Of a stretch of DNA of 21,689 nucleotides, positions 9,983-21,689 are shown piece after piece. Within the stretch, counting starts at the first letter, position 1. Each line of letters opens with the position of its first letter. Source of the DNA: a virus; IMG/VR virus record IMGVR_UViG_3300023178_000307, positions 1-21,689 of that record. One strand, written 5' to 3'. Below the pieces are notes generated by a model that saw only the letters and a list, made by a program, of their open reading frames with translations, was not told the DNA's origin and made no database searches. Position numbers and translations under genes: made by a program.

Positions 9983-12538
9983 TTACCTATTTCTTGCGAA
10001 TTTAGGTAGGATCAATTGTGGTTTAGCGTTATCTATAATATATGCTAGTTGTTCATCCCTTACAGTGTTCTGGTTAAGGACAATTGATTGTTTATCAATA
10101 TCTATCATGTTCTTAAACAGTCTTACATTCGATAAAAGGAGCGGGGATGTGTAAATCTTGTAAGCGTTATTATCCGTCCCATAGAATGGGTTGTTTACGT
10201 TTGTCTCAATATCAGAGGGAGCATCAAAAATGTAAGATTTGGTTAACGTCCTATAATCTTCGTGCACTTTAACTAAATCTGATGATTGTTGTGCACCTGG
10301 ATTTGTTGGATCATACGACATTTTCCAGATGTTAATTCCCATCTGCTTATACTTGTTACTTATATTAACAACCAATCCATACCACTCTCCCTGCTCTGGA
10401 GTAAATTGCAATCTGGAATCATACGTAAGATCGTTTAAGATAATCTCAATGCTTCCTTGTTGTACATAATTATTATTTGCAGCATCGTTGGTACCAGAAT
10501 GCACTAAGTCTATCCTCATGCCTTTTAACAAACCAGAGCCATCGATATAGGTTCCATCAATTAGATTCCTTGCTTGTGCCTTTTGCATTTTCCAATTTGC
10601 AGTATTCTTAGCATAAGGAAGATTTGGATTTGCAACAGAAAATTTAAACTCATCAGGAGTAGTTAGAACCTTGAATCCTCCCGAATGGTTAGCATCAGTA
10701 CTAATTGCAACATACCCTTCCGGGTTATCCGAAAATTGCCTAAATGGGGTTAAATTGTGTTTATATGGGTGAGAGCTGTATAAAATTTGGTTAGCATCCT
10801 CTGAGACTTTTGTGATTGGTGCTGGAGAGTATGGTTTTTTAGCCAAGCTATCCTCATTAATATAGTTCTTCAAACTAAACCAACAGGTGTAGGATACCTC
10901 ACCATCGCTCTCCAATAGAGGTCTGTTTTTATACCTAAGTGCTTCTCGATACTTGTTAGGCTGATATACGAATTCTGAATCAGAAACAAAAGCATCCGAC
11001 ATATCGTAGTAGTTGTTAAACACTATTGTCCAGTTGTTATTGAGATCATACCCAACTATAGGAAGATTCTTATAGATATAAGACCTGGTTGGGTCCTCTT
11101 GTCTTCTTTGCGTACTATCGGAGTATTGCTCTGGCTTAGCTATTTTTTGCTCTTCAGCTTCAACCTCTGCACCAAATAGCTTTTCTGTAGTAAGTGCAAT
11201 TCCATCTAATTCCTCTTTGTAAGCAGGGTCTTTGAAATACGTATTAGACTTAGGACTATATTTTTTAAGCTCTATTTTGTAGTAAACCGGAGAATACATG
11301 AAATCCCTGAACAAGTAGGTAGAATTTATTTCATAGATCCTATTGGTTAAAGGGAAGTAAATAATATCTCTCTTCCTTGGTTGTGAGCCTCTTCCAAAAA
11401 TGTTTTCGAAATAGGTCTTATCTATATGAATCTCGAACGGTTCGTCAAACTGGATTCCGAAGGGATCATAATTTGTTCGGTTATCTGGAAATTGATTTGA
11501 AGGAACCATTACCTTCACACATTGTTCATCTACAACATCAAATAAAGTATACTCCTTCAACACTACGTCTTTACCTCTAGCTTGTGGTTGCACTGAATAA
11601 TAATTTGTCTCAAACCCAAATACCTTGTTTACAACCAAGCTTAAATCCTTATACAGGTTAACAGCCTTGTTTATTGCATAGGGATTAAAAGTGTAGTTGC
11701 AATCATCAAAAACAACTGGTCTGTTTGACTTCTCATTAGAGCAATTTGGTACAGGTCTATTAATAACCAAGTTATCTATTGAACCAGAAGGTCCACTAGG
11801 TCCAGTAGCATAGGTAAGATCAAGATCGAAATCAAGGATTACTATTGAAGGATCTATAGGTTCATCTGTCTCATAAGCCAGTGTTCCGTCCGTATTTACT
11901 ACAACGGAAGTAAATCTAAATTCCGGGTAAAATGATTTTGAAGGATCAAGCGGAATTGAGAAGATTGTCGAATCGTTGTTGGAGGTATAACCCTGAGAAA
12001 ATCCAGTTAATGCAGTTCCAACATTAGCCCAAAGGGACCAACTTTTCCCGTCAACAGAATATCTAAAATCAATTGCAATGTCATTTGGAATAGCTGCTGT
12101 TGGATCACCAAGATTTACAGGATCACCCAAAACAGCACCTGCTGTTTCTATTATCCACCCATTGAAGGCTTGTACATAGTTAAATGGGCTATCCCAAGTG
12201 AGAACCCTATAATTACCTATGTATGTGAAATTTAATGAGCTTTCGAATTGCTGTATTCTTTCAGCATACCAGGTAGCATCAGAACATGGTAAGTAATAGT
12301 AAACCCCATCGTCAGCAAGAGCTGTGTGATAACCATTACAACCAAGTTGCTCAGCACGTGCCATAGCAGCTCCAGTGGTTCCAAAATAGTTATCTGTACT
12401 CTGGTGAAAAACCTTGGTAGTATTCTCCAAATTGTCTTGGTATCTAAATCTAGGATCCGAAAGATCCCTCTGATCGCCGTTGCCGTTATAAACGGGGATA
12501 CCTTTTTTTGGAAATCTATTTTCTGGGTAAAAAGCCAT
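9983..12538 (-). CDS. Neck protein, gp14-like, with N-terminal extension and LamG-like C-terminus (851 aa)
   Basis: Head-tail neck component. The middle (about residues 280-435) follows the gp14 pattern: VNKVFGFETNYY, a region around FDEPFEIHIDKTYFENIFGR, then KRDIIYFPLTNRIYEIN and YYKIELKKYSP. T4 gp14 is about 256 aa, so roughly 600 residues are extra. The N-terminal part (40-95) has the pattern EQLGCNGYH to YYLPCSDATWYAERI, frequent in phage appendage proteins. A short collagen-like GPSGPSGS (246-253) links it to the gp14 part. The C-terminal part (about 540-840) looks like a concanavalin/LamG fold (TCWFSLKNYI, GEWYGLVVNISNKY, LLSNVRLFKN), often a sugar-binding domain. Its position before gp16 and gp17 matches T4. 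The ATG follows a promoter-like box and a hairpin. It may form a neck collar or whiskers. Confidence 0.72.
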   Translation of the reverse strand: MAFYPENRFPKKGIPVYNGNGDQRDLSDPRFRYQDNLENTTKVFHQSTDNYFGTTGAAMARAEQLGCNGYHTALADDGVYYYLPCSDATWYAERIQQFESSLNFTYIGNYRVLTWDSPFNYVQAFNGWIIETAGAVLGDPVNLGDPTAAIPNDIAIDFRYSVDGKSWSLWANVGTALTGFSQGYTSNNDSTIFSIPLDPSKSFYPEFRFTSVVVNTDGTLAYETDEPIDPSIVILDFDLDLTYATGPSGPSGSIDNLVINRPVPNCSNEKSNRPVVFDDCNYTFNPYAINKAVNLYKDLSLVVNKVFGFETNYYSVQPQARGKDVVLKEYTLFDVVDEQCVKVMVPSNQFPDNRTNYDPFGIQFDEPFEIHIDKTYFENIFGRGSQPRKRDIIYFPLTNRIYEINSTYLFRDFMYSPVYYKIELKKYSPKSNTYFKDPAYKEELDGIALTTEKLFGAEVEAEEQKIAKPEQYSDSTQRRQEDPTRSYIYKNLPIVGYDLNNNWTIVFNNYYDMSDAFVSDSEFVYQPNKYREALRYKNRPLLESDGEVSYTCWFSLKNYINEDSLAKKPYSPAPITKVSEDANQILYSSHPYKHNLTPFRQFSDNPEGYVAISTDANHSGGFKVLTTPDEFKFSVANPNLPYAKNTANWKMQKAQARNLIDGTYIDGSGLLKGMRIDLVHSGTNDAANNNYVQQGSIEIILNDLTYDSRLQFTPEQGEWYGLVVNISNKYKQMGINIWKMSYDPTNPGAQQSSDLVKVHEDYRTLTKSYIFDAPSDIETNVNNPFYGTDNNAYKIYTSPLLLSNVRLFKNMIDIDKQSIVLNQNTVRDEQLAYIIDNAKPQLILPKFARNR

Positions 12539-12607: not shown

Positions 12608-13789
12608 TTAAGATAGGTGATTTTGTATCAGATCGTCGATATAGGTTTGAACAACCTCTGGGGTAATTGTTTTTGTACATTCAAACATCCTTTCGGTATC
12701 CTTTAACCTCGGACACCAATTCCAATCCCCCTTATCAAATTTTATTGAGGTATCACTAAAGCAACCATGGCAGACATCGCGGTTTATGATTCTATAGTTT
12801 TTAGTAGAAAATTCACACGCGGGATCCGAAAAACCAGATATCATTACAACTGGCTTGTGTAGTGACCAAGCAAGCCAGCTTAGACCAGACCCTATTCCAA
12901 TAAAGAAATCGGAGTGATAAATGTCAATGGCTCTTTGTAAAATATCAATATCTCCAGTTTTGTCAATCACTCCATTTAAATTTGTTCCCTGCTTTTGTAC
13001 AACAACAACCTTATAACCTATTGAATTTAAATAATCGGTAATCTTCTGCCAGCCGTCCTCATAGTGCCAATGTTTAGCATTAGCGGTAGAATCCATAGCC
13101 AAACACACATACTTTCCGTCAATAGTTGAGTTTGTGTTTTGTATTGTTAGTGGTACACTTTCGTTTAATAGGTCACCTTCAACATCTATTCCTAAAATAT
13201 CCCCAGCAACCTGCTGTAACGAAATAGCTCTAGGATCCCTCCTATGTCTATCGCGGTCATTCTCGTCATACCACCCCACACCAAATGTAATTTTTGTATT
13301 GATCTCTCTTGACCCGGGTGATCTAAACCTTATGGAAGGATAATAGTTAGCAAGAAGCTCATTCCAAAATGTAGTAACATAGAGGTCACAGTCATATTTT
13401 CTTCTGAATTTTTCTATGACGGGCATCCAAGCTAGAGTGTCACCAAGTGAGTTGCTATCAACACTAATACAAACTTTTTCCTCACTAATTACGTCTTCCA
13501 GATCTCTCTGGTAGATTAATTCATCATTATCGTAAGCCTCTAATCTCCAAGGAGTAAACCATTTTCTATAAAGCCTTGTAAAAAGTCCAGCAGAAATTTC
13601 ACCTGTATACCCATATGTACCAGTACTTAAATCCATGAACTTTATTGTACAAGGTTTAGCATTATTTGGTCCTATGCAATCAACATTAGCACCATTATCA
13701 AAAGTAAGTTCAAAAGTGTAGGGGTGTCTAAACCTTACAAAGTCCGCTTTTTTTAAGCTCTCATAAACTTTTAAGCCTCTATTTTTCAT
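12608..13789 (-). CDS. TibC/Aah-type protein O-heptosyltransferase (GT9-like, 393 aa)
   Basis: Very like the bacterial autotransporter heptosyltransferases (TibC, Aah), which use ADP-heptose to modify serines of AIDA-I and TibA. Visible features: an N-terminal beta region (1-100); a GT9-like first Rossmann part with VDSNSLGDTLAWMP (110-123), where D111 or D117 would be catalytic; YVCLAMDSTANAKHW (227-241) in the second half; the donor-site stretch DFFIGIGSGLSWLAWSLHKP (294-313); then SGFSDPACEF. Four cysteines follow, C340-x2-C343-x15-C359-x11-C371 in contexts VCHGCF, NWCPR and FECTK, corresponding to the iron-binding finger of TibC. Length is close to TibC (about 400). It overlaps the GT4-like gene by 4 bases (ATGA), so translation is coupled. 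No heptose-synthesis genes are visible, so the donor would come from the host. Phage substrate is unproven; the Ser-rich fibre upstream is the obvious candidate. Confidence 0.87.
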   Translation of the reverse strand: MKNRGLKVYESLKKADFVRFRHPYTFELTFDNGANVDCIGPNNAKPCTIKFMDLSTGTYGYTGEISAGLFTRLYRKWFTPWRLEAYDNDELIYQRDLEDVISEEKVCISVDSNSLGDTLAWMPVIEKFRRKYDCDLYVTTFWNELLANYYPSIRFRSPGSREINTKITFGVGWYDENDRDRHRRDPRAISLQQVAGDILGIDVEGDLLNESVPLTIQNTNSTIDGKYVCLAMDSTANAKHWHYEDGWQKITDYLNSIGYKVVVVQKQGTNLNGVIDKTGDIDILQRAIDIYHSDFFIGIGSGLSWLAWSLHKPVVMISGFSDPACEFSTKNYRIINRDVCHGCFSDTSIKFDKGDWNWCPRLKDTERMFECTKTITPEVVQTYIDDLIQNHLS

Positions 13790-14838
13790 CTTAAATCTAA
13801 TATGTCCTTAATTTTTTCCGTATCTGCAGGTATATCTAAAAAAGCACCGCTAGGGCTAAGATAGCTTACCAATGGATTCTGATCATAAGAATCCATGTAT
13901 GGATCAAGTCTTCTCATTAAAATCGGTAGTTTCCATGAAAGAGTCTCCTTTATAACAATGGGATTTAACTCCCAATTAGAGGTAAAAACAAAAAGGTCAG
14001 CCGCACTATAGAAAAGATCCGCATCATCTCTTTCACCCCATAATTTGCAATTATCAGGTAGTGTTTCTAAAAGTGGTTCCCAATAGCTTTGAAAATTTGG
14101 TGCAGTATTTCCTATAAAGTGAAATTGTATTGGGTAGTCAATGAGATTTCTAGCGTGCTCTATAAGCTCACCTTGGTTTTTACCTGGTGTGAATAAACCG
14201 ATATTTATTACATGCTTTTTGTTTGGATCTAGACCAAGACTCTCTAAGGCAGATTTTCTATCAGGTCTTTTAAAATCCTCAATTGGGTATTCTAAAATGT
14301 CTGTCGGAACACCAAGATCTTTAAATTTGTTACACATCCATTGATTTACCATAACCAGTTTATCCGGACAATATATCTTATCTGATGGGGAAATATTTGA
14401 GCTGTGGCAAGTTTCAACTATGCAATATGGTCTATCCAGTGCATATATTTTGTCAATAATCGACGGGTCTACAAAAAATTCAACAAAATCATCAAAATGG
14501 ATAACGTCAGGGTAAATTCTATCAATTAAATCAAGTATCTCTGTCTTATCTTCCCCCAAACAATGGAATCTAGAACCAATCCTTTCCTTTATCCTATTTC
14601 TCTGTACAACATATTCCTCCGATGTATTGTTATATTGTATGCAATAAACTTCAGCTTCTTCGTTAAAAGACTCTATTTTTTTGTACAGGTATTGAGGCAT
14701 TCCTCCAGTTGAAAGATGTGGAGCAACGAAAAGAATTCTCTTTTTTCCACCGGTTTTTTCATCCAATGTTTTTTGTATAGAATTGATTGTTCTTACCAAT
14801 TCATATTTGGTTTTTCTTAAAGCCTCAATCTCTTTCAT
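13786..14838 (-). CDS. GT-B glycosyltransferase, GT4-like (350 aa)
   Basis: Retaining glycosyltransferase of the GT4 type, adding a sugar from a nucleotide donor. The N-terminal Rossmann part starts at RILFVAPHLSTGGMPQYLY (34-52), with the glycine-rich loop expected in GT4 enzymes. The C-terminal part has INIGLFTPGKNQGELI (211-226), DADLFYSAADLFVFTSNWE (272-290) and the EX7E donor motif E290-x7-E298 in NWELNPIVIKETLSWKLP. The first 30 residues form a charged helix. At 350 aa it is compact but complete. It begins 3 bases after the 91-aa gene and overlaps the heptosyltransferase gene by 4 bases, so it likely acts in the same modification pathway, perhaps extending or starting a glycan. Donor and acceptor cannot be read from sequence. 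Confidence 0.87.
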   Translation of the reverse strand: MKEIEALRKTKYELVRTINSIQKTLDEKTGGKKRILFVAPHLSTGGMPQYLYKKIESFNEEAEVYCIQYNNTSEEYVVQRNRIKERIGSRFHCLGEDKTEILDLIDRIYPDVIHFDDFVEFFVDPSIIDKIYALDRPYCIVETCHSSNISPSDKIYCPDKLVMVNQWMCNKFKDLGVPTDILEYPIEDFKRPDRKSALESLGLDPNKKHVINIGLFTPGKNQGELIEHARNLIDYPIQFHFIGNTAPNFQSYWEPLLETLPDNCKLWGERDDADLFYSAADLFVFTSNWELNPIVIKETLSWKLPILMRRLDPYMDSYDQNPLVSYLSPSGAFLDIPADTEKIKDILDLR

Positions 14839-14841
14839 TTA

Positions 14842-15117
14842 TTATTCTTTAGTGTAAATACCAGTTTCAAAATTTAACTGGCCTTCCCCATATTTCTGAA
14901 TGATCTCATCTATTACATCCTTCTCCTGTGTGTCCAGTTCTTCTGACTTTTGAAGCAATGATATCAGAGTTGCCTCTATTGGCTCGAGTTCTTTTACCAG
15001 AAAATGCTTTCTAATATTCAGTCTACCTATCGATTCAACATTTTCTAAAATCTCGGTTCTTAAGGAGTTAATTTTTTCCAACTCCTCAGATGTTATTTTT
15101 GTTTGATTGTTTTCCAT
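14842..15117 (-). CDS. Small helical protein of unknown function (91 aa)
   Basis: I do not recognise a function. Residues 7-70 are highly charged and form a probable coiled coil (EELEKINSLRTEILENVESI to LLQKSEELDTQEKDVIDEI). The end, KYGEGQLNFETGIYTKE, is a compact tail of a kind often seen on small phage proteins. There is no signal peptide or membrane segment. The gene lies between two glycosyltransferases (10 bases after one, 3 before the next), so it could be a partner that holds these enzymes together, but this is inference from position only. Confidence 0.7.
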   Translation of the reverse strand: MENNQTKITSEELEKINSLRTEILENVESIGRLNIRKHFLVKELEPIEATLISLLQKSEELDTQEKDVIDEIIQKYGEGQLNFETGIYTKE

Positions 15118-15127
15118 ATGTTTTTAT

Positions 15128-16330
15128 CTAAATTTCACCAGGAAAGTAAGCGTCTTCCATAGTTTTTAAATTATTTTGGTCTGTTCGGGTTTCAATTAGT
15201 TCCACAAATTTCATCGATTCTTTGTACAGAAATTCTACATAATCAGAGGTATCCTTGTAACAAGAGGTCCAGAGTAAAAAATGAAATCTAGGAAATGGGC
15301 ATATCCTATCATCTCTCATGAGCATTGATGTTATTTCATACATCCTATGAAATTTTTGGTCCTCCAAGAGCATCTCTGCCAAAATAACCCAGTGCTCGTT
15401 TCTATCCGGACAATACCAGTCAGCTTGTTCAAGCCTTTTATATGCGAGATCTCGATTTCCTATAAATCTATGTGCTTGTCCGATAAGAACTATAGAAAGG
15501 TAACACATCTCATCAAACACTGTAGGAGGTGAGTCATTATCATAAACTGGAAATTTCCTTCTCACATAATGTTCAAGGTAATATATAGTCCTTCTAGCGT
15601 ATTCATCACTATGATTTTTGCCAAACGGGAGATTTCCATTCTGATAAATATCAGCATAACTTTTACCAATATAGAAAAGATGGTAATCATCCTCTTTTAT
15701 CTTCCCAGAACAAACCTGATCAGCTTCAAGTAAAAGAGCATCATTTAAAAACTTTAAAGGGTCTTCCCAAGTTTTACCGTCATTTGTAATGATATGTCTA
15801 AACCCACGGGGTAAGTTAATTACCTGAAAATTACCCTCCCCTTCTTTGTGACCAGAAAGATAAATTGTCTCATGCCTTTTGTCGTGCTTGAAATACCATG
15901 GCAATTTTGCATTCCAAAGCCAAGTTCTATAATATATTCCACCCGGGTCCTGAGCGGTAATATTAAAACTTTGAATAGATGTGTCGTTAATCAAAGACCA
16001 ATCAAAATTATCATCAACAGCCAGTTGTTCATCTGCATCCATCCTTAAAATCCAATCACAACCATGATCAGCTTTTAAACATTCTTGCAAAGTGTGATCC
16101 CGATTAAATCCAGGATATTGCCATTCAGTTTCATACAGGTATCCAGGTATCCCCTTTTGAGAAAAGAAATTTCTAATAAGACCTTGGGTACCATCAGTAG
16201 AGCCGTTATCTTGTATAACCCAATAATCGATGTATCGATAGCAGGATTCAAGCATTCTCAGAATAACACGGGATTCATTAGCTACCATGGCATTCATGCA
16301 AATTTTAGCCCTCTTATTCATCATATACAT
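15128..16330 (-). CDS. GT2-family glycosyltransferase with helical TPR-like C-terminus (400 aa)
   Basis: Inverting GT-A glycosyltransferase. Motifs: KICMNAMVANESRVILRML (9-27), the nucleotide-binding DNGSTDGT (41-48), and the metal-binding DxD in RMDADEQL (97-104, D98/D100). The C-terminal third (about 265-390) is helical and TPR-like (IGQAHRFIGNRDLAYKRLEQ, HWVILAEMLLEDQKFHRMYE), a layout known in GT2 proteins that modify peptides. ATG codons at 16330, 16324 and 16321 are possible starts; MNKRAKI from 16321 looks most natural. The start overlaps the end of the previous glycosyltransferase by 17 bases, so expression is coupled. The acceptor is unknown. A protein acceptor fits the neighbouring TibC-type enzyme. 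Confidence 0.87.
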   Translation of the reverse strand: MYMMNKRAKICMNAMVANESRVILRMLESCYRYIDYWVIQDNGSTDGTQGLIRNFFSQKGIPGYLYETEWQYPGFNRDHTLQECLKADHGCDWILRMDADEQLAVDDNFDWSLINDTSIQSFNITAQDPGGIYYRTWLWNAKLPWYFKHDKRHETIYLSGHKEGEGNFQVINLPRGFRHIITNDGKTWEDPLKFLNDALLLEADQVCSGKIKEDDYHLFYIGKSYADIYQNGNLPFGKNHSDEYARRTIYYLEHYVRRKFPVYDNDSPPTVFDEMCYLSIVLIGQAHRFIGNRDLAYKRLEQADWYCPDRNEHWVILAEMLLEDQKFHRMYEITSMLMRDDRICPFPRFHFLLWTSCYKDTSDYVEFLYKESMKFVELIETRTDQNNLKTMEDAYFPGEI

Positions 16331-17612
16331 AATTCAAAACCTGTTCATCCTCCCAGAACTTTATATCACTAAGGTCACTATTCATTATAGCCTCTTGGTG
16401 CCTATTAGTTCTCTTTTCTTCGTCCCACTCCCAATCATGGAACCCCAAATCAATTATCCTGTTATGTATTGCTTTGTTATATTTCTCTTTCAAAATTCTA
16501 GAAATTCTATTAATTTCGAAAGAGTTATAGCTAACAGTCCCGGAGCCATTACTATATTGAATATATAGCAAATCCTTAATATGGACTATCCTTGTTTCGA
16601 GAAAAGTTTTAATGATTAATTCTAGATCATCCGCTATTGGTAGGCTTTCAGCATGCCCTCCGATTTTTTTATAAATATCAGACCTCCAAGCCCTAACATG
16701 ATTTGGCATTGAAATATTAAATCTAATAGTAATCGGATTTATAGAGGGATAGTGATGTGTTAGATATCTTTTACCCTTTATATTAACCCAAGAGTGTCCA
16801 GAATACCCAAAGTTAAAGTTGTTGCCTTCAACACCATAGAAATTACCATCGTATTTTTCATCTTTGCTACCATATCTTCTAAATTTCCCATTCTCAAACA
16901 TTTCTGTACAGTCACTGTAAATGAATCCAGCGTCAGGGAATTTATCGCTAGCAGATTTAATTTTAGCCAAGCAATTATCCAATAAATAGTCATCATGGTC
17001 AAGTTCTACCAACCATTTACCACTAGACAAAGAGCAGGCCCTCTTCTTAGCCATTCCTACAAATCCCCCGGTATTTGGTGTTATTCTATATGGTTTAACC
17101 CTTAAATCCCTGGAAGCTATCTTTTGAAGATCATGCCATAAGTCGTTATGGTCTGAAGGCGAATCGTCTACAACAACCCACTCCCAATCTGTTTCACTCT
17201 GATCTACTATTCCTTGATAAGTTCTAAATATTCTCTCCCCCGTTTTGAAAGCAGGGGTAAAAATGCTGAAAAGAGGAATGTGTGGGTTTGTACGAACGTC
17301 TACTGCCTTAACCACCACATCATTAGCAAGTGTGTCAGGATCTGGGATTTGATCGTATTCTATAACCATTCTATCAAAATGCGAATGTATTTGATCATAC
17401 TTACTACCAATAAAAACGAAAACATCAGGAGTGTGTTTGATGTTTAAATCCGATAGTACATTATTGTCTACATCAATTATGCCAATAGAAATCAAATTCA
17501 CCCACTGCATGTTATTTTCTACCGAAGAATAAACTGTGGTAACGAATTCATAATTGCCACTAGGCTTATCCCAACCAAAAACAATAGCAGTCGGTCTTTT
17601 AACAATTAGCAT
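16314..17612 (-). CDS. GT2-family glycosyltransferase with extra N-terminal domain (432 aa)
   Basis: GT-A glycosyltransferase. The catalytic domain starts near residue 112 (IPLFSIFTPAFKTGERIFR), with WEWVVVDDSPSD (143-154) for nucleotide binding and LVELDHDDYL (201-210) as the DxD-type metal motif. A YSDCTEMFENGKF segment and HVRAWRSDIYKKIGG (about 309-323) are typical of GT2 enzymes. The first 110 residues form a small alpha/beta region (FVFIGSKYDQIHSHFDRMV) that I cannot name. The end is basic, then acidic. It starts one base after the dioxygenase-like gene and overlaps the next glycosyltransferase by 17 bases, in the middle of the modification operon. Sugar and acceptor are not deducible. 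Confidence 0.86.
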   Translation of the reverse strand: MLIVKRPTAIVFGWDKPSGNYEFVTTVYSSVENNMQWVNLISIGIIDVDNNVLSDLNIKHTPDVFVFIGSKYDQIHSHFDRMVIEYDQIPDPDTLANDVVVKAVDVRTNPHIPLFSIFTPAFKTGERIFRTYQGIVDQSETDWEWVVVDDSPSDHNDLWHDLQKIASRDLRVKPYRITPNTGGFVGMAKKRACSLSSGKWLVELDHDDYLLDNCLAKIKSASDKFPDAGFIYSDCTEMFENGKFRRYGSKDEKYDGNFYGVEGNNFNFGYSGHSWVNIKGKRYLTHHYPSINPITIRFNISMPNHVRAWRSDIYKKIGGHAESLPIADDLELIIKTFLETRIVHIKDLLYIQYSNGSGTVSYNSFEINRISRILKEKYNKAIHNRIIDLGFHDWEWDEEKRTNRHQEAIMNSDLSDIKFWEDEQVLNYVYDE

Positions 17613-18191
17613 TTATTTTTCCGTGTTGAAAAAGAAAACCTGGAATAGCCTACCGTCATTTTTATCCAGTCCGAAATAGTCCAAAGAAACGTGAAATAAA
17701 TCACCCCGATAAATTACCAGCCTATTATAAATATTTCCAATTTTATCAACCATTTCCCATTTGGTCATATCCTGGGATTCTATATTAACAGGGGCTGCTT
17801 TAGCTACCTCATCAGGATGCTCAGAATTTCTCCACCTATTAAGACCAGTTTCTTTATGCCTAAAAAGACCAGTACCTGCAGAAAGTGGTGCATCTGGTGT
17901 TAAATAAAGAACTCCTGCCCAATCTGTTGTGTCATCGCTATGGATCCAGGATCTGTCAGCAGCTACTGTATATTGAAAGGACCCAGTTGAATCATCACCC
18001 CACCAAGTAACCTCTCCGCCATAAGGTCTAATTATATCCTGAATAGAATTCTTTACGTTATCTGCTAAAAAAGATACCGTTCTTTGTCCGGGGTAATTTC
18101 CACGAGCACTAAATTCTTGGGCTAAAGCAAATGATCTTACATCATCGGGATTTTTATAGAAATCGTCTATAATGATTGTTTGGACCTTCAT
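17613..18191 (-). CDS. 2-oxoglutarate/Fe(II)-dioxygenase-like protein (192 aa)
   Basis: Small double-stranded beta-helix protein with the pattern of Fe(II)/2-oxoglutarate oxygenases: HxD at H84-S-D86 in WIHSDDTTDWAGVLYL, a distal H167 in YRGDLFHVSLDYFG, and R181 in GRLFQVFFF as the possible 2-oxoglutarate anchor. The spacing and the short length resemble the DUF6445-type group rather than classic P4H. The N-terminal VQTIIIDDFYKNPDDVRSFA is also typical of this group. It would hydroxylate or otherwise oxidise a substrate in the cytoplasm. It lies between the fibre genes and four glycosyltransferases and abuts the first of these, so fibre or glycan modification is a reasonable guess. Host metabolite modification is the alternative. 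Confidence 0.78.
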   Translation of the reverse strand: MKVQTIIIDDFYKNPDDVRSFALAQEFSARGNYPGQRTVSFLADNVKNSIQDIIRPYGGEVTWWGDDSTGSFQYTVAADRSWIHSDDTTDWAGVLYLTPDAPLSAGTGLFRHKETGLNRWRNSEHPDEVAKAAPVNIESQDMTKWEMVDKIGNIYNRLVIYRGDLFHVSLDYFGLDKNDGRLFQVFFFNTEK

Positions 18192-18206
18192 ATAGAATTA
18201 CAATAA

Positions 18207-18224
18207 TGATTTATTCTTATACGC
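18207..18224 (-). promoter_or_regulatory. Possible promoter before the modification operon
   Basis: The minus strand reads GGCGTATAAGAATAAATC in the 59-bp gap before the dioxygenase-like gene. It contains TATAAG and AATAAAT but lacks the CGGATAWATA form. It is the only gap of any size between the fibre gene and the neck gene, so an operon start here is plausible. Confidence 0.25.
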
Positions 18225-18250
18225 CAAACAATCCAAAGGTTTTCAATTAT

Positions 18251-18505
18251 TTAAAGTAATCCTGGGAATTCATTAACCTTTTGAGTTGTATTGGGGTTAC
18301 TAACTATCGAATTAGAATTACCTAGAATATCGGACATAGAAAAAATCACACTCGGAATATGATCACCAGTAGATTTGGAATAATCATATGTATTTAAAAC
18401 AATACCCTCCTTATTGATAATTTCAATTCTCGAAATTTCTTCACCTCCAACAAAATTATTGGCCATTTGTAAAAGTGACATGTCTACCTTAGGTACTTCC
18501 TTCAT
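18251..18505 (-). CDS. Small protein of unknown function after the fibre gene (84 aa)
   Basis: I do not recognise it. It starts with a Met 12 bases after the fibre stop codon, without a ribosome-binding site. It has a helix (DMSLLQMANNFVGGEE) followed by a beta pair (ISRIEIINKEGIVLNTYDYS) and an Asn/Ser/Pro-rich tail. There is no signal peptide or transmembrane segment. Small genes directly after phage fibres are often fibre chaperones or attachment proteins, but no specific feature here shows that. Confidence 0.6.
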   Translation of the reverse strand: MKEVPKVDMSLLQMANNFVGGEEISRIEIINKEGIVLNTYDYSKSTGDHIPSVIFSMSDILGNSNSIVSNPNTTQKVNEFPGLL

Positions 18506-18517
18506 AGCATTAATCTA

Positions 18518-21500
18518 TTACTCACAAGAGTATCCAGGAACGTTATATGTTGTTCCATCACAATCAATTCGGAACCACACATTAGGTTCTGCAAGATAAA
18601 CGTCAGGATTAGTCCCGTAGTACAATGTTGGGTTACCACCTTCAGTAGATGTACACGTTCCATCACACGGAATTGTTGCTGCTGCTCCTTGTGCTCCTTG
18701 TGCTCCTGCTGCTCCTGCTGCTCCCTGTGCTCCGTCAGAACCAGAAGCAGCAGCTGCTCCTGATATCCGAGCAATATTAATAACAGCATCAGTGATCGCT
18801 ACAGTTCCAGTACCGCTACTATCCATCCGTGCTGCATTTACCTCCATTCTTATAGTATCATTCGTATTTAAATAGAAATAACCAGTGGTTAGCGTATTAA
18901 TTTCATCATTATAAAGCTGTCCTCTTGAGTAAGTATCAGACTTAGAAGAATCTACAACAGCACCATTAATATAGAGATTTTGCTGCATTGTTGATCTAGA
19001 ACCACTCCTACTTGCTCCAACAATGTAATTTACATTAGAGCTAATTATATAATATCCATCTTGCAGAATCTCAATAAGAGCAGTATCATTCGTATGATCG
19101 TAAATTAAGGCGTTGGTTGAAGGGTCTAAACCATATTGTGTATGCGAAACTTTAATATCTGCTGTGGTACCTTGGGTAGAGAAATTAGTTACATTTAAAG
19201 TACCATCATCATACCCATTAAATCTATCTACACTACCTCCAACACCAGAACTTCCTGATGATCCAGAAGAACCAGAACTTCCTGAGGATCCAGAAGAACC
19301 AGAACTTCCTGATGATCCAGAAGAACCAGATGTTCCTGAAGAACCACTAGATCCTGAGGAACCACTAGAGCCTGACGATCCTGATGTTCCTGATGAACCA
19401 GAAGAACCACTAGAGCCTGATGATCCAGAAGAACCTGAGGATCCTGAGGATCCTGAAGAACCACTAGATCCTGAGGAACCACTAGAGCCTGATGATCCAG
19501 AAGAACCTGATGTTCCAGAACTTCCTGGTGCTCCTACTCCTGCAATTTGAATTAATATATCATCACCTGTAGTAGGCGACCATCCTGTACCTGACAAATG
19601 ATCTAAATCAAATTCCCAATATGATCCGTTATCAACACCAACTGAGATTTGCGTATAATAAAGTACGTTAGATCCACCAACTAATCGCGTTATTTTCCAT
19701 AGGGTTCCGTTGCCTAAACTATTAAAAATGTTTACATAATTAGGTCCTGATATGGGGTTTTCATTTATCAATAAGACAAAGGGTGATGCAGGTAAATTAG
19801 ATCCGGAGCTATTTCTAGCTTCTCCACTTGCTGGAGATCCTCCGGATGTTGTCCAATCCCAGGTATTGTCTATTACATATCCTGAAGTACCAGAAATTCC
19901 TGATGATCCTGATGATCCCGAAGAACCACTAGAGCCTGATGTTCCCGAAGATCCACTAGAGCCTGAAGAACCACTAGATCCAGAAGAACCACTAGAGCCT
20001 GAGGATCCTGAGGTTCCTGAAGAACCTGAAGAACCACTAGAGCCTGACGATCCAGAAGATCCTGATGTTCCTGCATCACCAATTACATTAAGTCCTACCC
20101 AATAATCTTCACCATCGGTAAGGGATCCAGATCCACCTCTATCTATATACTCTAAACCTAGTTGAAACCATGTACTATTAGTTGGAGGATTTTTTGTTGC
20201 ACTGGTTACATAATATGATGCAAATTGAGAATTTCCTGGGGTTAAGAACTGTATAATTCCTCTTCTTGGACCAGGGTTTGCTATCTCATCGAAGATATCT
20301 AACGTCTTAGTAACATTTACTGAATTAGTAGAAGTTGTACTAATCGCAGCACCTGTAACACTGTTTAAGCTTGCATTATTTAATACAAATTGTTGGGATG
20401 ATGGTGCTACTGTAATGTTCGTACTGCTTGAATCGTATTCAGAAAAGAATCCTAAATAATTTGTGCCATCAATACCTGATGTTCCGGAAGAACCACTAGA
20501 TCCTGAAGAACCTGATGTTCCTGAAGAACCTGATGATCCTGAAGAACCAGAGGAACCTGATGAACCAGAGGAACCTGATGAACCAGAAGAACCAGAAGAA
20601 CCTGAAGATCCTGATGATCCAGAAGAACCACTAGATCCAGAAGAACCTGATGTTCCTGAAGACCCTGAAGATCCTGAAGATCCACTTGACCCTGAAGATC
20701 CAGAAGAACCACTAGATCCTGAAGAACCGCTAGATCCTGAGGTTCCTGAGGAACCTGAAGATCCTGAAGATCCACTTGACCCTGAAGATCCAGAAGAACC
20801 ACTAGATCCTGAAGAACCTGAAGAACCAGAAGAACCTGACGATCCTGAAGATCCAGAAGATCCACTCGTGCCTGAAGAACCTGAAGAACCTGAAGAACCT
20901 GAAGAACCTGAAGAACCTGACGATCCTGATGATCCTGATGATCCAGAGGAACCTGAAGATCCTGAAGATCCACTAGATCCTGATGAACCTGAAGATCCTG
21001 AAGTTCCTGAAGATCCAGAAGAACCACTAGAGCCTGAAGAACCTGAAGATCCTGATGATCCAGAAGAACCACTAGATCCAGAAGAACCTGATGTTCCTGA
21101 AGAACCACTAGATCCTGAAGAACCTGATGAACCTGAGGATCCTGAAGTTCCTGATGAACCAGAAGAACCACTAGATCCTGATGATCCGGAAGATCCACTA
21201 GAACCTGAAGTTCCAGAGGCTCCAGATACACCAGAGGAACCTGATGATCCACTTGTGCCGGAAGAACCTGATGATCCTGAAGAACCTGATGATCCTGAAG
21301 ATCCACTTGTGCCTGAAGAACCTGATGATCCTGAAGATCCTGAAGAGCCACTAGATCCTGATGATCCTGAAGTTCCTGAAGATCCTGAAGAGCCACTAGA
21401 TCCTGAAGAACCCGAAGAACCCGAAGAACCTGATGATCCTGAAGAACCGCTAGATCCTGAAGTTCCTGAAGAGCCACTAGACCCTGAAGAACCCGAAGAA

Positions 21501-21689
21501 CCTGATGATCCTGAAGATCCAGAAGAACCACTAGATCCTGAAGAACCTGAAGAACCTGAAGAACCTGAAGAACCTGAGGATCCTGAGGTTCCTGACGATC
21601 CAGAAGAACCGCTAGATCCTGAAGAACCGCTAGATCCTGAAGTTCCTGAGGAACCTGAAGATCCTGAAGAGCCACTAGATCCTGATGAT
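18518..21689 (-). CDS. Giant Ser/Gly-repeat fibre protein with C1q-like domain, 5' end outside window (at least 1056 aa)
   Basis: One uninterrupted frame runs from the right edge (first full codon at 21688) to the stop at 18518; I translated it across the shadow ORFs. Residues counted from the edge: GSS/GTS block 1 (1-405, with one GVSGAS break near 21218-21232), beta domain A (406-539), block 2 (540-603), beta domain B (604-721), block 3 (722-815), C-terminal part (816-1056). A and B resemble each other, each ending in a Trp strand, a Gly loop, a GDD/GED turn and a Gly-Xaa junction into the next repeat. The C-terminal part looks like a C1q/TNF jelly roll (SHTQYG, DGYYIISSNVNY, YSRGQLYND, NDTIRMEVNAA, VINIARIS), then GAQGAAGAAGAQGAQGAA collagen-like, then a tip with four Cys ending PGYSCE. 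A TTG at 19771 is not the true start. It is probably a trimeric tail or head fibre that binds the host or surrounding glycans. Confidence 0.85.
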   Translation of the reverse strand, partial: SSGSSGSSGSSGSSGTSGSSGSSGSSGSSGSSGTSGSSGSSGSSGSSGSSGSSGSSGSSGSSGSSGSSGSSGSSGTSGSSGSSGSSGSSGSSGSSGSSGSSGSSGTSGSSGSSGSSGSSGSSGSSGTSGSSGSSGSSGSSGSSGTSGSSGSSGVSGASGTSGSSGSSGSSGSSGSSGSSGTSGSSGSSGSSGSSGSSGTSGSSGSSGSSGSSGSSGSSGSSGSSGSSGTSGSSGSSGSSGSSGSSGSSGSSGSSGSSGSSGSSGSSGSSGSSGTSGSSGSSGSSGSSGSSGSSGSSGSSGSSGSSGSSGSSGSSGTSGSSGSSGSSGSSGSSGSSGSSGSSGSSGTSGSSGSSGSSGSSGSSGSSGSSGSSGSSGSSGSSGSSGSSGSSGTSGSSGSSGSSGTSGIDGTNYLGFFSEYDSSSTNITVAPSSQQFVLNNASLNSVTGAAISTTSTNSVNVTKTLDIFDEIANPGPRRGIIQFLTPGNSQFASYYVTSATKNPPTNSTWFQLGLEYIDRGGSGSLTDGEDYWVGLNVIGDAGTSGSSGSSGSSGSSGSSGTSGSSGSSGSSGSSGSSGSSGSSGTSGSSGSSGSSGSSGISGTSGYVIDNTWDWTTSGGSPASGEARNSSGSNLPASPFVLLINENPISGPNYVNIFNSLGNGTLWKITRLVGGSNVLYYTQISVGVDNGSYWEFDLDHLSGTGWSPTTGDDILIQIAGVGAPGSSGTSGSSGSSGSSGSSGSSGSSGSSGSSGSSGSSGSSGSSGSSGTSGSSGSSGSSGSSGSSGTSGSSGSSGSSGSSGSSGSSGSSGSSGSSGVGGSVDRFNGYDDGTLNVTNFSTQGTTADIKVSHTQYGLDPSTNALIYDHTNDTALIEILQDGYYIISSNVNYIVGASRSGSRSTMQQNLYINGAVVDSSKSDTYSRGQLYNDEINTLTTGYFYLNTNDTIRMEVNAARMDSSGTGTVAITDAVINIARISGAAAASGSDGAQGAAGAAGAQGAQGAAATIPCDGTCTSTEGGNPTLYYGTNPDVYLAEPNVWFRIDCDGTTYNVPGYSCE
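19244..19525 (-). repeat. GSS/GTS coding repeat, block 3
   Basis: About 94 codons of Gly-Ser-Ser with a few Gly-Thr-Ser. At DNA level the unit is built from GGATCTAGTGG- and TCTTCAGG-like pieces, so CTAG and GATC are frequent. It lies between beta domain B and the C1q-like domain. Confidence 0.95.
19880..20071 (-). repeat. GSS/GTS coding repeat, block 2
   Basis: About 64 codons of Gly-Ser-Ser/Gly-Thr-Ser between beta domains A and B, with GISGTSG just before domain B. It is made of the same nine- and eighteen-base pieces as the other blocks. Confidence 0.95.
20474..21689 (-). repeat. GSS/GTS coding repeat, block 1 (runs off the edge)
   Basis: At least 405 codons of Gly-Ser-Ser with scattered Gly-Thr-Ser and one Gly-Val-Ser-Gly-Ala-Ser interruption. 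Around two thirds of residues carry a hydroxyl. Synonymous codons vary (TCT, TCA, TCC, AGT; GGA, GGT, GGC), so the protein sequence seems more conserved than the DNA repeat. The other frames stay open through the block and give spurious ORFs on both strands. Confidence 0.95.

Follow-up and report, generated by a model that had tools for sequence, protein, structure and literature searches.

Does a phage that codes for a giant serine-rich fibre next to several glycosyltransferases coat this fibre with sugar? The question is raised by the viral record IMGVR_UViG_3300023178_000307 (hereafter the window, the whole stretch of 21,689 bases that was analyzed), where a collagen-like fibre gene stands beside an operon with a TibC/Aah-type enzyme. 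We consider it quite likely that this TibC/Aah-family phage enzyme glycosylates serines in the fibre's Gly-Ser-Ser/Gly-Thr-Ser repeats, with other enzymes of the operon acting in extension or hydroxylation. The fibre is suggested as the target by the pairing of enzyme and repeat, which recurs in many viruses and in some bacteria; what we infer is which protein and which sugar are involved, what the other enzymes do, and how the phage benefits. A sequence-only reading of this DNA had proposed, at its core, that the TibC-type enzyme modifies the Ser/Thr fibre, and further that the sugars might ward off proteases or antibodies, stiffen the fibre, or mimic host surfaces. Several sequence comparisons support this core, but neither the idea of a self-contained system nor the likeness to Fap1/GspB.

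The TibC-like enzyme and the collagen-like fibre

At the protein level, the product of 12608-13789 scored 279.5 bits against TIGR04414 (hepto_Aah_TibC) across residues 30-385, above the curated cut-off of 200, and the TibC structures 4rap and 4rb4 matched it at E-values of about 1e-57. Its phmmer alignment with TibC begins at TibC residue 43, and the equivalents of TibC D110, T226, K230, R286, and W305 are all kept. The catalytic aspartate is D117 in the window enzyme, and the aligned position in 4rb4 is an alanine; the accessible part of PMC4358343 names the D110A variant of TibC and provides the residue roles used here (catalytic, donor-binding, and iron finger). The iron-finger cysteines C340, C343, C359, and C371, matching TibC 339, 342, 358, and 370, were invariant in 15 phage sequences, and the catalytic Asp, the Lys, the Trp, and the four cysteines were present in all 62 phage rows of the family alignment, window included. 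At the position for heptose stereochemistry, the window enzyme has Gly, versus Pro in TibC and Ser in AAH. By the family cut-off and the conserved active-site residues, the product is a member of the TibC/Aah family, whose enzymes are protein glycosyltransferases by precedent. Some phage records have more than one match to this family (three each in G011 and G012; two each in G006, G007, G026, G029, and G030), several of these matches being partial or under the cut-off.

The fibre frame, of 1056 amino acids (aa), is open at the contig end and matches Pfam Collagen with 269.9 bits (cut-off 27.2) in six stretches. Its runs contain 201 Gly triplets in total; among 202 three-residue steps there are 161 GSS, 22 GTS, and no GST. 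The sequence-only reading was right to call the fibre serine-rich, and its estimate of two thirds Ser/Thr in the repeats is close to the 61.6% of residues measured in the runs, the ceiling for Gly-X-Y being 66.7%. The Y position is Ser in 186 of the 193 triplets of the three long runs. Across 164 distinct Ser/Thr-rich runs from 185 loci, X is Ser (4850) or Thr (4712) about equally, and Y is mostly Ser (9072, with 392 Thr). Ser is nearly fixed at Y, and the repeat is in the collagen register. Proline occurs in a single triplet (GAP) among the 202 steps, so the runs lack the Pro-rich X/Y positions of collagen.

Fap1 and GspB, to which the fibre had been compared, are serine-rich repeat adhesins with their own transferase clusters. 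We rejected a reading of this type on the Gly-X-Y register and the Pfam Collagen match, the repeat being collagen-type. For the fibre head, the predicted model was of low confidence (mean predicted local distance difference test, pLDDT, 41.6; 50-69 in blocks of residues 51-150), and Foldseek returned TNF/C1q-type matches for it, including Bacillus anthracis BxpB at rank 25. The model thus gives a hint of a TNF/C1q-type head, a fold that forms trimers.

Pairing of enzyme and repeat in viruses and bacteria

A scan of viral contigs retrieved 163 stretches coding for an enzyme relative, of which 80 were kept. Since the sequence-only reading had proposed searching phage genomes for co-occurrence of such fibres and TibC-like genes, whole records –mostly fragments– were searched for TIGR04414. 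Of 50 viral records selected with a Ser/Thr pattern of seven Gly-X-Y triplets, 14 had the family (12 over the cut-off; the first 50 by number of at least 120 loci), compared with one of 83 selected with a control pattern of four G-[AP]-[QE] triplets (L324-L406, among the matches listed) and none of 17 selected with an arbitrary 15-mer. The difference between 14/50 and 1/83 gave a Fisher value of 3.3e-6. Because the control records were shorter (median 21.7 kb vs. 42.2 kb), we also permuted within four length classes, where 2 of 20,000 permutations attained the observed count. Among records longer than 100 kb, the counts were 6/8 for the Ser/Thr pattern and 0/5 for the control.

Enzyme and repeat also tend to lie close to each other. 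The repeat lay inside the stretch around the enzyme in nine of the 14 co-occurring records, and it was present in 13 of 20 enzyme-centred stretches versus none of 20 elsewhere in the same records (sign test 2.4e-4; the offset stretches were hand-placed about half a record away, and the 20 records came from selection by the repeat in five cases and by the enzyme in 15). A run of at least 10 triplets was seen at 22 of 34 distinct TibC-like loci of the viral scan. In 30 long records (98-735 kb, reached via enzyme or terminase loci, some near-identical), 20 had the strict repeat pattern and 29 the enzyme; the record without enzyme, G028, also lacked the strict repeat.

The strand-loop-strand repeat TIGR04415, which is the known acceptor, was found in none of 43 phage records including the window (fragments among them), with a positive E. 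coli control. For bacteria and archaea, a genome scan gave 87 enzyme relatives, of which 80 were kept, and a Ser/Thr-rich Gly-X-Y run lay near the TibC-family locus in 17 of the 80. TIGR04415 was found in none of these 17 genomes versus 16 of 33 others (Fisher 2.9e-4), the 50 searched genomes being hand-chosen: every one of the 17 with a run, plus 33 of the remaining 63. In seven of the 17 (L499, L506, L510, L527, L530, L535, and L538), the partners are larger and, by eye, fibre-like; these loci may be phage contigs within metagenome-assembled genomes (MAGs). L510 and L535, both with fibre-like Gly-X-Y proteins (by eye) and a TibC-like gene, are filed under archaeal MAGs and are possibly mis-binned phage contigs.

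In eight bacterial loci (L500, L501, L502, L504, L520, L523, L524, and L531), the open reading frame (ORF) with the repeat is only 59-218 bases from the enzyme match. These partners are small (about 100-290 aa), rich in GTS, GSS, GTA, or GTN triplets, with an N-terminus that is lipobox-like or signal-like by eye, and the small GTS/GSS/GTA-rich partners are apparently exported. Three of them were scanned (L501, L524, and L531), and all exceeded the Pfam Collagen cut-off.

The family of Methylobacter luteus extends this picture. TIGR04414 matched 95 of its 121 genomes at E <= 0.001 and exceeded the cut-off in nine, four of them already in the bacterial scan. A Gly-Thr/Ser-x protein was found within 1.5 kb of the enzyme in seven of the nine, and in four of the five newly found. 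The exceptions were L579 (an outlier at 654 bits) and L584; a tenth, partial match in G294 (113 bits) showed no repeat in the 2.5 kb available. The strict pattern occurred in three of the 121 genomes and in none of the 112 others: in two of the nine, GTS matches lie some 0.55 kb away from the enzyme, and the third, G199, also one of the nine, has an unrelated Gly-Thr-Gly repeat. The backwards control pattern was found in two of the 121 (G304 and G322). These methanotroph pairs are apparently a bacterial version of the enzyme-repeat pairing. Pairs of a TibC-like gene and a small Gly-Thr/Ser-x protein were seen in this family at L523 (8923-11125), L531 (9842-11912), L580-L583, and L585-L587.

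We placed the family on two quick IQ-TREE trees, one with 125 rows and one with 126 including TibC, with support from the Shimodaira-Hasegawa-like approximate likelihood ratio test (SH-aLRT) only. They omit L571, L561, L527, L468, L536, proteins with fewer than 240 matched residues, and rows more than 90% alike. In the tree with TibC, a branch with support 100 separates 42 bacterial rows and TibC from 62 phage and 21 bacterial rows. A Gly-X-Y run lies near 16 of the 21 bacterial rows on the phage side and near none of the 42 on the TibC side. The group of the window (10 phage rows) joins five gammaproteobacterial rows, L500-L504, and one phage row (support 93, and 97 with TibC); for each of these five bacterial rows, GTS/GSS proteins lie no more than 1 kb from the enzyme. 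We think it fairly probable that these enzymes form a second, largely viral TibC/Aah branch with collagen-register Gly-Ser/Thr-Ser acceptors: phage fibres, with the enzyme fused to GT4 in some lineages, and small exported GTS-repeat proteins of some Gammaproteobacteria (Methylobacter, Methylomicrobium). The recurrence of the repeat in seemingly unrelated partners –phage fibres and small bacterial proteins– is a stronger argument for it than the split itself.

Several observations weigh against the fibre as the target. No TibC family was found in 36 of the 50 Ser/Thr-Gly-X-Y records, many of them fragments, so the repeat can occur on its own; and 12 of the 34 distinct TibC-like loci had no run in the available stretch, which was short for some. 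Stretches around the enzyme were free of such runs in five of the 14 co-occurring records (G037, G039, G045, G046, and G068), and so were those around second genes of the family in G026, G027, and G030; the strict repeat was absent from 10 of the 30 long records, nine of these with the enzyme. Upstream of the neck gene, six terminase-anchored relatives (L136, L146, L148, L150, L151, and L152) have 2.6 kb or more of sequence and no TibC-like gene; L146 and L150 have Ser/Thr-rich runs all the same, and the record of L150 has a TibC domain elsewhere. In L008, L009, L013, L014, and L020, the sequenced part of the fibre has Ala/Gln-rich repeats. These five looked like a counter-example, yet about 50 tip residues of their fibres align with the tip of the window's fibre, itself after a short Ala/Gln-rich stretch, and the contigs end inside the repeat, so that its upstream part may differ. 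The adenine-contacting Arg is kept in the window, yet in only 16 of the 62 phage rows, so the donor may differ in the other 46. Finally, the acceptor label changes only once on the tree; the split therefore counts as one event, and its p-values overstate independence.

The repeat records without enzyme and the loci without repeat would fit a TibC-like enzyme that modifies another phage or host protein, for example globular fibre domains, the repeat being a bare spacer. We regard this as quite unlikely, given that the feature common to phage fibres and small bacterial partners is the Gly-Ser/Thr-x triplet, and that the canonical acceptor repeat was not found in the phage records. The single label change, together with the enzyme being commoner in long records within the repeat-picked set, would be expected if enzyme and repeat both marked the same large-genome phage lineages and co-occurred without a functional link. 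That is very improbable in our view: the association survives the length strata, the repeat sits near the enzyme within the same record, and seven of the nine Methylobacter-family genomes with the enzyme over the cut-off have a Gly-Thr/Ser-x protein close by, twice with the strict GTS pattern.

Operon, sugar donor, and lineage

All genes discussed –fibre, 84-aa frame, DUF6445, two GT2, 91-aa, GT4, TibC-like, and neck– are on the minus strand (Table 1). Family matches confirmed the order given by the sequence-only reading, from the fibre to the 2-oxoglutarate (2OG)-oxygenase-like protein, two GT2, GT4-like, and TibC/Aah-type enzymes, where the 84-aa frame (18251-18505) and the 91-aa protein (14842-15117) had gone unmentioned. 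Beyond the neck gene are a 257-aa protein without PHROG match, the terminase, and then a sheath and two tube-like proteins, these last three named by eye.

Table 1 Coordinates of the operon, the fibre segments, and gmhA-like genes in other records
Feature	Position	Strand	Remarks
Collagen-like fibre, 5' end cut by contig	18518..21688	-	Pfam Collagen PF01391 E 5.5e-82
Fibre Gly-X-Y run 1	20459-21682	-	136 triplets
Fibre Gly-X-Y run 2	19874-20080	-	23 triplets
Fibre Gly-X-Y run 3	19229-19534	-	34 triplets
Fibre Ala/Gln-rich short run	18680-18760	-	8 triplets
Fibre head and Cys-containing tip	18518-19225	-	Low-confidence all-beta model
84-aa frame between fibre and oxygenase	18251..18505	-	Family searches: 0 matches
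DUF6445 protein, 2OG-Fe(II)-oxygenase-type HxD...H...R	17613..18191	-	PF20043 E 4e-15
GT2 glycosyltransferase GT2a	16314..17612	-	PF00535 E 1e-10
GT2 glycosyltransferase GT2b	15128..16330	-	PF13704 E 5.6e-7
91-aa conserved protein between GT2 and GT4	14842..15117	-	Kept in relatives
GT4-like glycosyltransferase	13786..14838	-	PF00534 E 1.8e-10; 4-base overlap with TibC-like gene
TibC/Aah-type protein O-glycosyltransferase	12608..13789	-	TIGR04414 279.5 bits; 4rap E 1e-57
Neck / head-closure protein adjoining module	9983..12538	-	PF11649 E 8.7e-6; phrog_679 E 9.2e-9
gmhA-like gene	G025:C1:115697-116164		Under cut-off; record also with TibC-like genes
gmhA-like gene	G026:C1:209835-210305		Under cut-off; record also with TibC-like genes
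gmhA-like gene	G029:C1:97896-98366		Under cut-off; record also with TibC-like genes
gmhA-like gene	W03:C1:430182-430640		Over cut-off; record also with TibC-like genes

A TibC-like gene was present in 51 of 80 terminase-anchored loci, directly before the neck gene in 45 of them. These 51 loci also contain a window-like GT4 (44), the 91-aa protein (41), DUF6445 (20), and GT2a (18), and 23 of the 29 loci without the enzyme have little sequence upstream of the neck gene. The 91-aa protein is also found in five relatives without a neck-adjacent TibC-like gene (L146, L148, L150, L151, and L152). In L106, L108, L112-L116, L118-L120, L134, L137, and L138, the gap between terminase and sheath is about 1.6 kb longer than in the window, perhaps by an inserted gene.

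For the DUF6445 protein, H84-x-D86...H167...R181 was invariant in seven sequences 71-98% identical to the window, and HxD...H...R is the active-site pattern of 2OG-Fe(II) oxygenases; the predicted fold had a pLDDT of 44.8. The PHROG label of the 17613-18191 family, 'minor coat protein', may be wrong given the DUF6445 match and the oxygenase-type pattern. In some cyanophages, a protein of this family is located at glycosyltransferase annotations.

In PDB searches, the GT4 enzyme had no matches, and GT2b had one weak match (E 2.7e-4) to GmaR, a flagellin-modifying protein, which we take as a weak lead to a possible GT2b role. No GtfA/GtfB-type models were among the family matches of the operon. 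The weak matches of GT2a were to polysaccharide and teichuronic-acid enzymes, with chondroitin synthase (E 8e-6) and 6h1j (E 1.2e-5) in the PDB. They would fit glycosyltransferases that remodel host surface polysaccharide, for superinfection exclusion or receptor change, in a fibre region that merely collects such genes. This we hold to be unlikely, because TibC-family enzymes by precedent act on proteins, the statistical link is to Ser/Thr Gly-X-Y and not to collagen-like repeats generally, and the same pairing is found in small bacterial proteins outside phage fibre regions. In pelagimyophages, glycosyltransferases of the host-recognition region have been suggested to play such a role (PMC7029224, in its accessible part).

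GT4 and TibC probably act together, since a GT4-like domain was fused to the TibC domain in 16 of the 70 ORFs that contain TibC, some of these ORFs being near-copies. Chained ORFs of roughly 1200-1600 aa, in which TibC is joined to other domains, occur in L036, L051, L064, L067, L069, L071, L075, L477, and L186, the first eight with a GT4-like domain; an FkbM-like domain was noted in chained ORFs by eye only, plus the annotation 'methyltransferase FkbM' in Mel-JY01. The record of this isolated Microcystis phage contains a TibC domain together with Ser/Thr-rich runs of Gly-X-Y triplets.

Regarding the sugar donor, two genes of ADP-heptose (adenosine diphosphate heptose) synthesis were searched. 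Neither gmhA nor rfaE domain II was found in G001 and G002, the two longest near-identical relatives of the window (fragments), nor gmhA in the window itself, so the host would supply ADP-heptose; on this point, the system is not self-contained as had been suggested. The rfaE domain II gave weak matches in five of 33 records other than the window, none over the cut-off, and gmhA matched in four of 31, over the cut-off in W03 and at 184-188 bits versus 209.45 in G025, G026, and G029. The gmhA-like genes of these last three records, from the wider terminase lineage, fit a heptose donor in a comparison without control. A 290-kb phage record also contained an rfaE-domain-like match (G027:C1:175170-175571, L192) that includes two TAA codons in frame.

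We propose the following mechanism. In the infected cell, the TibC-like enzyme would move a sugar, most likely heptose from the ADP-heptose of the host, onto serines of the GSS/GTS repeats of the adjacent fibre. GT4, joined in this lineage by the two GT2 enzymes, would lengthen the glycan or add to it, and the 2OG-oxygenase-like DUF6445 protein would act as a hydroxylase on the fibre or glycan. In this way, a collagen-like stalk with almost no proline would become hydrated, stiffer, and shielded. A short synthetic peptide containing SSGG is a substrate of TibC (PMC4358343, accessible part), so the acceptor apparently need not be an entire folded beta-helix. For BclA, in turn, a review describes a better hydration network of this collagen-like protein as the presumed effect of glycosylation (PMC8968730, likewise in part).

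The terminase and the neck protein were compared with a phage collection (best 25 of 2505 and 30 of 31 matching records, respectively). Among the matches listed, the best named phages were large, mostly with Bacteroidota hosts, all below 60% identity: named hosts were Flavobacterium, Tenacibaculum, Prevotella, and Chryseobacterium, and there was also 'Sphingomonas phage PAU' as recorded. Uncultured huge phages were likewise present, also below 60%, and these matches included no isolate from the lineage of the window itself. On the terminase and neck matches, the T4-like label of the sequence-only reading is fair, and a Bacteroidota host would be a guess. A PF03420 profile search of the window's own record gave no matches, and neither did its controls.

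Comparison with known systems

If the proposal is true, it would mean a new substrate class for TibC-type enzymes, a hint of how giant proline-free Gly-Ser/Thr-Ser fibres fold and persist, and, in large uncultured phages, a system for coating a fibre with sugar. It would also provide candidate enzyme-substrate pairs testable in methanotroph isolates. In the part of the literature covered by our search, with subscription papers mostly outside, we found no report of a phage TibC-type enzyme or of Gly-X-Y acceptors for the TibC family.

The closest known system is TibC/AAH, the heptosyltransferases of bacterial autotransporters (TIGR04414; PDB 4rap and 4rb4), which form a dodecameric ring, have an N-terminal beta-barrel domain, and take heptose from ADP-heptose, and with which the window enzyme shares the family cut-off, the catalytic Asp, the donor-binding Thr/Lys/Arg/Trp, and the four iron-finger Cys. 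Unlike them, it lies across the branch with support 100 and has Gly at the stereoselectivity position; its partner is a collagen-register Ser/Thr repeat instead of the strand-loop-strand acceptor, not found in the phage records; and in phages there is a GT4 partner or fusion.

Fap1/GspB resemble the window in having a Ser/Thr-rich protein coded beside glycosyltransferases, but differ in the Gly-X-Y register and in the GtfA/GtfB-type match that the operon lacks. Glycans on virion proteins are also known from mycobacteriophages, where capsid and tail-tube C-termini are reported to be glycosylated (Freeman 2023, as described in PMC12619734). In the window, the glycan would be on a fibre repeat, and the enzyme belongs to another family.

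As collagen-like targets, BclA of Bacillus spores (PMC8968730) has a collagen-like stalk as sugar target and possibly shares a TNF/C1q-type head, as far as the low-confidence model suggests, and mimivirus collagen (PMC9546862, PMC8968730) is a case of a virus coding for its own collagen-modifying enzymes, all according to the accessible parts of these sources. Unlike both, the stalk in the window is almost without Pro, has Ser at Y, and is paired with a TibC-type (GT9-like) enzyme.

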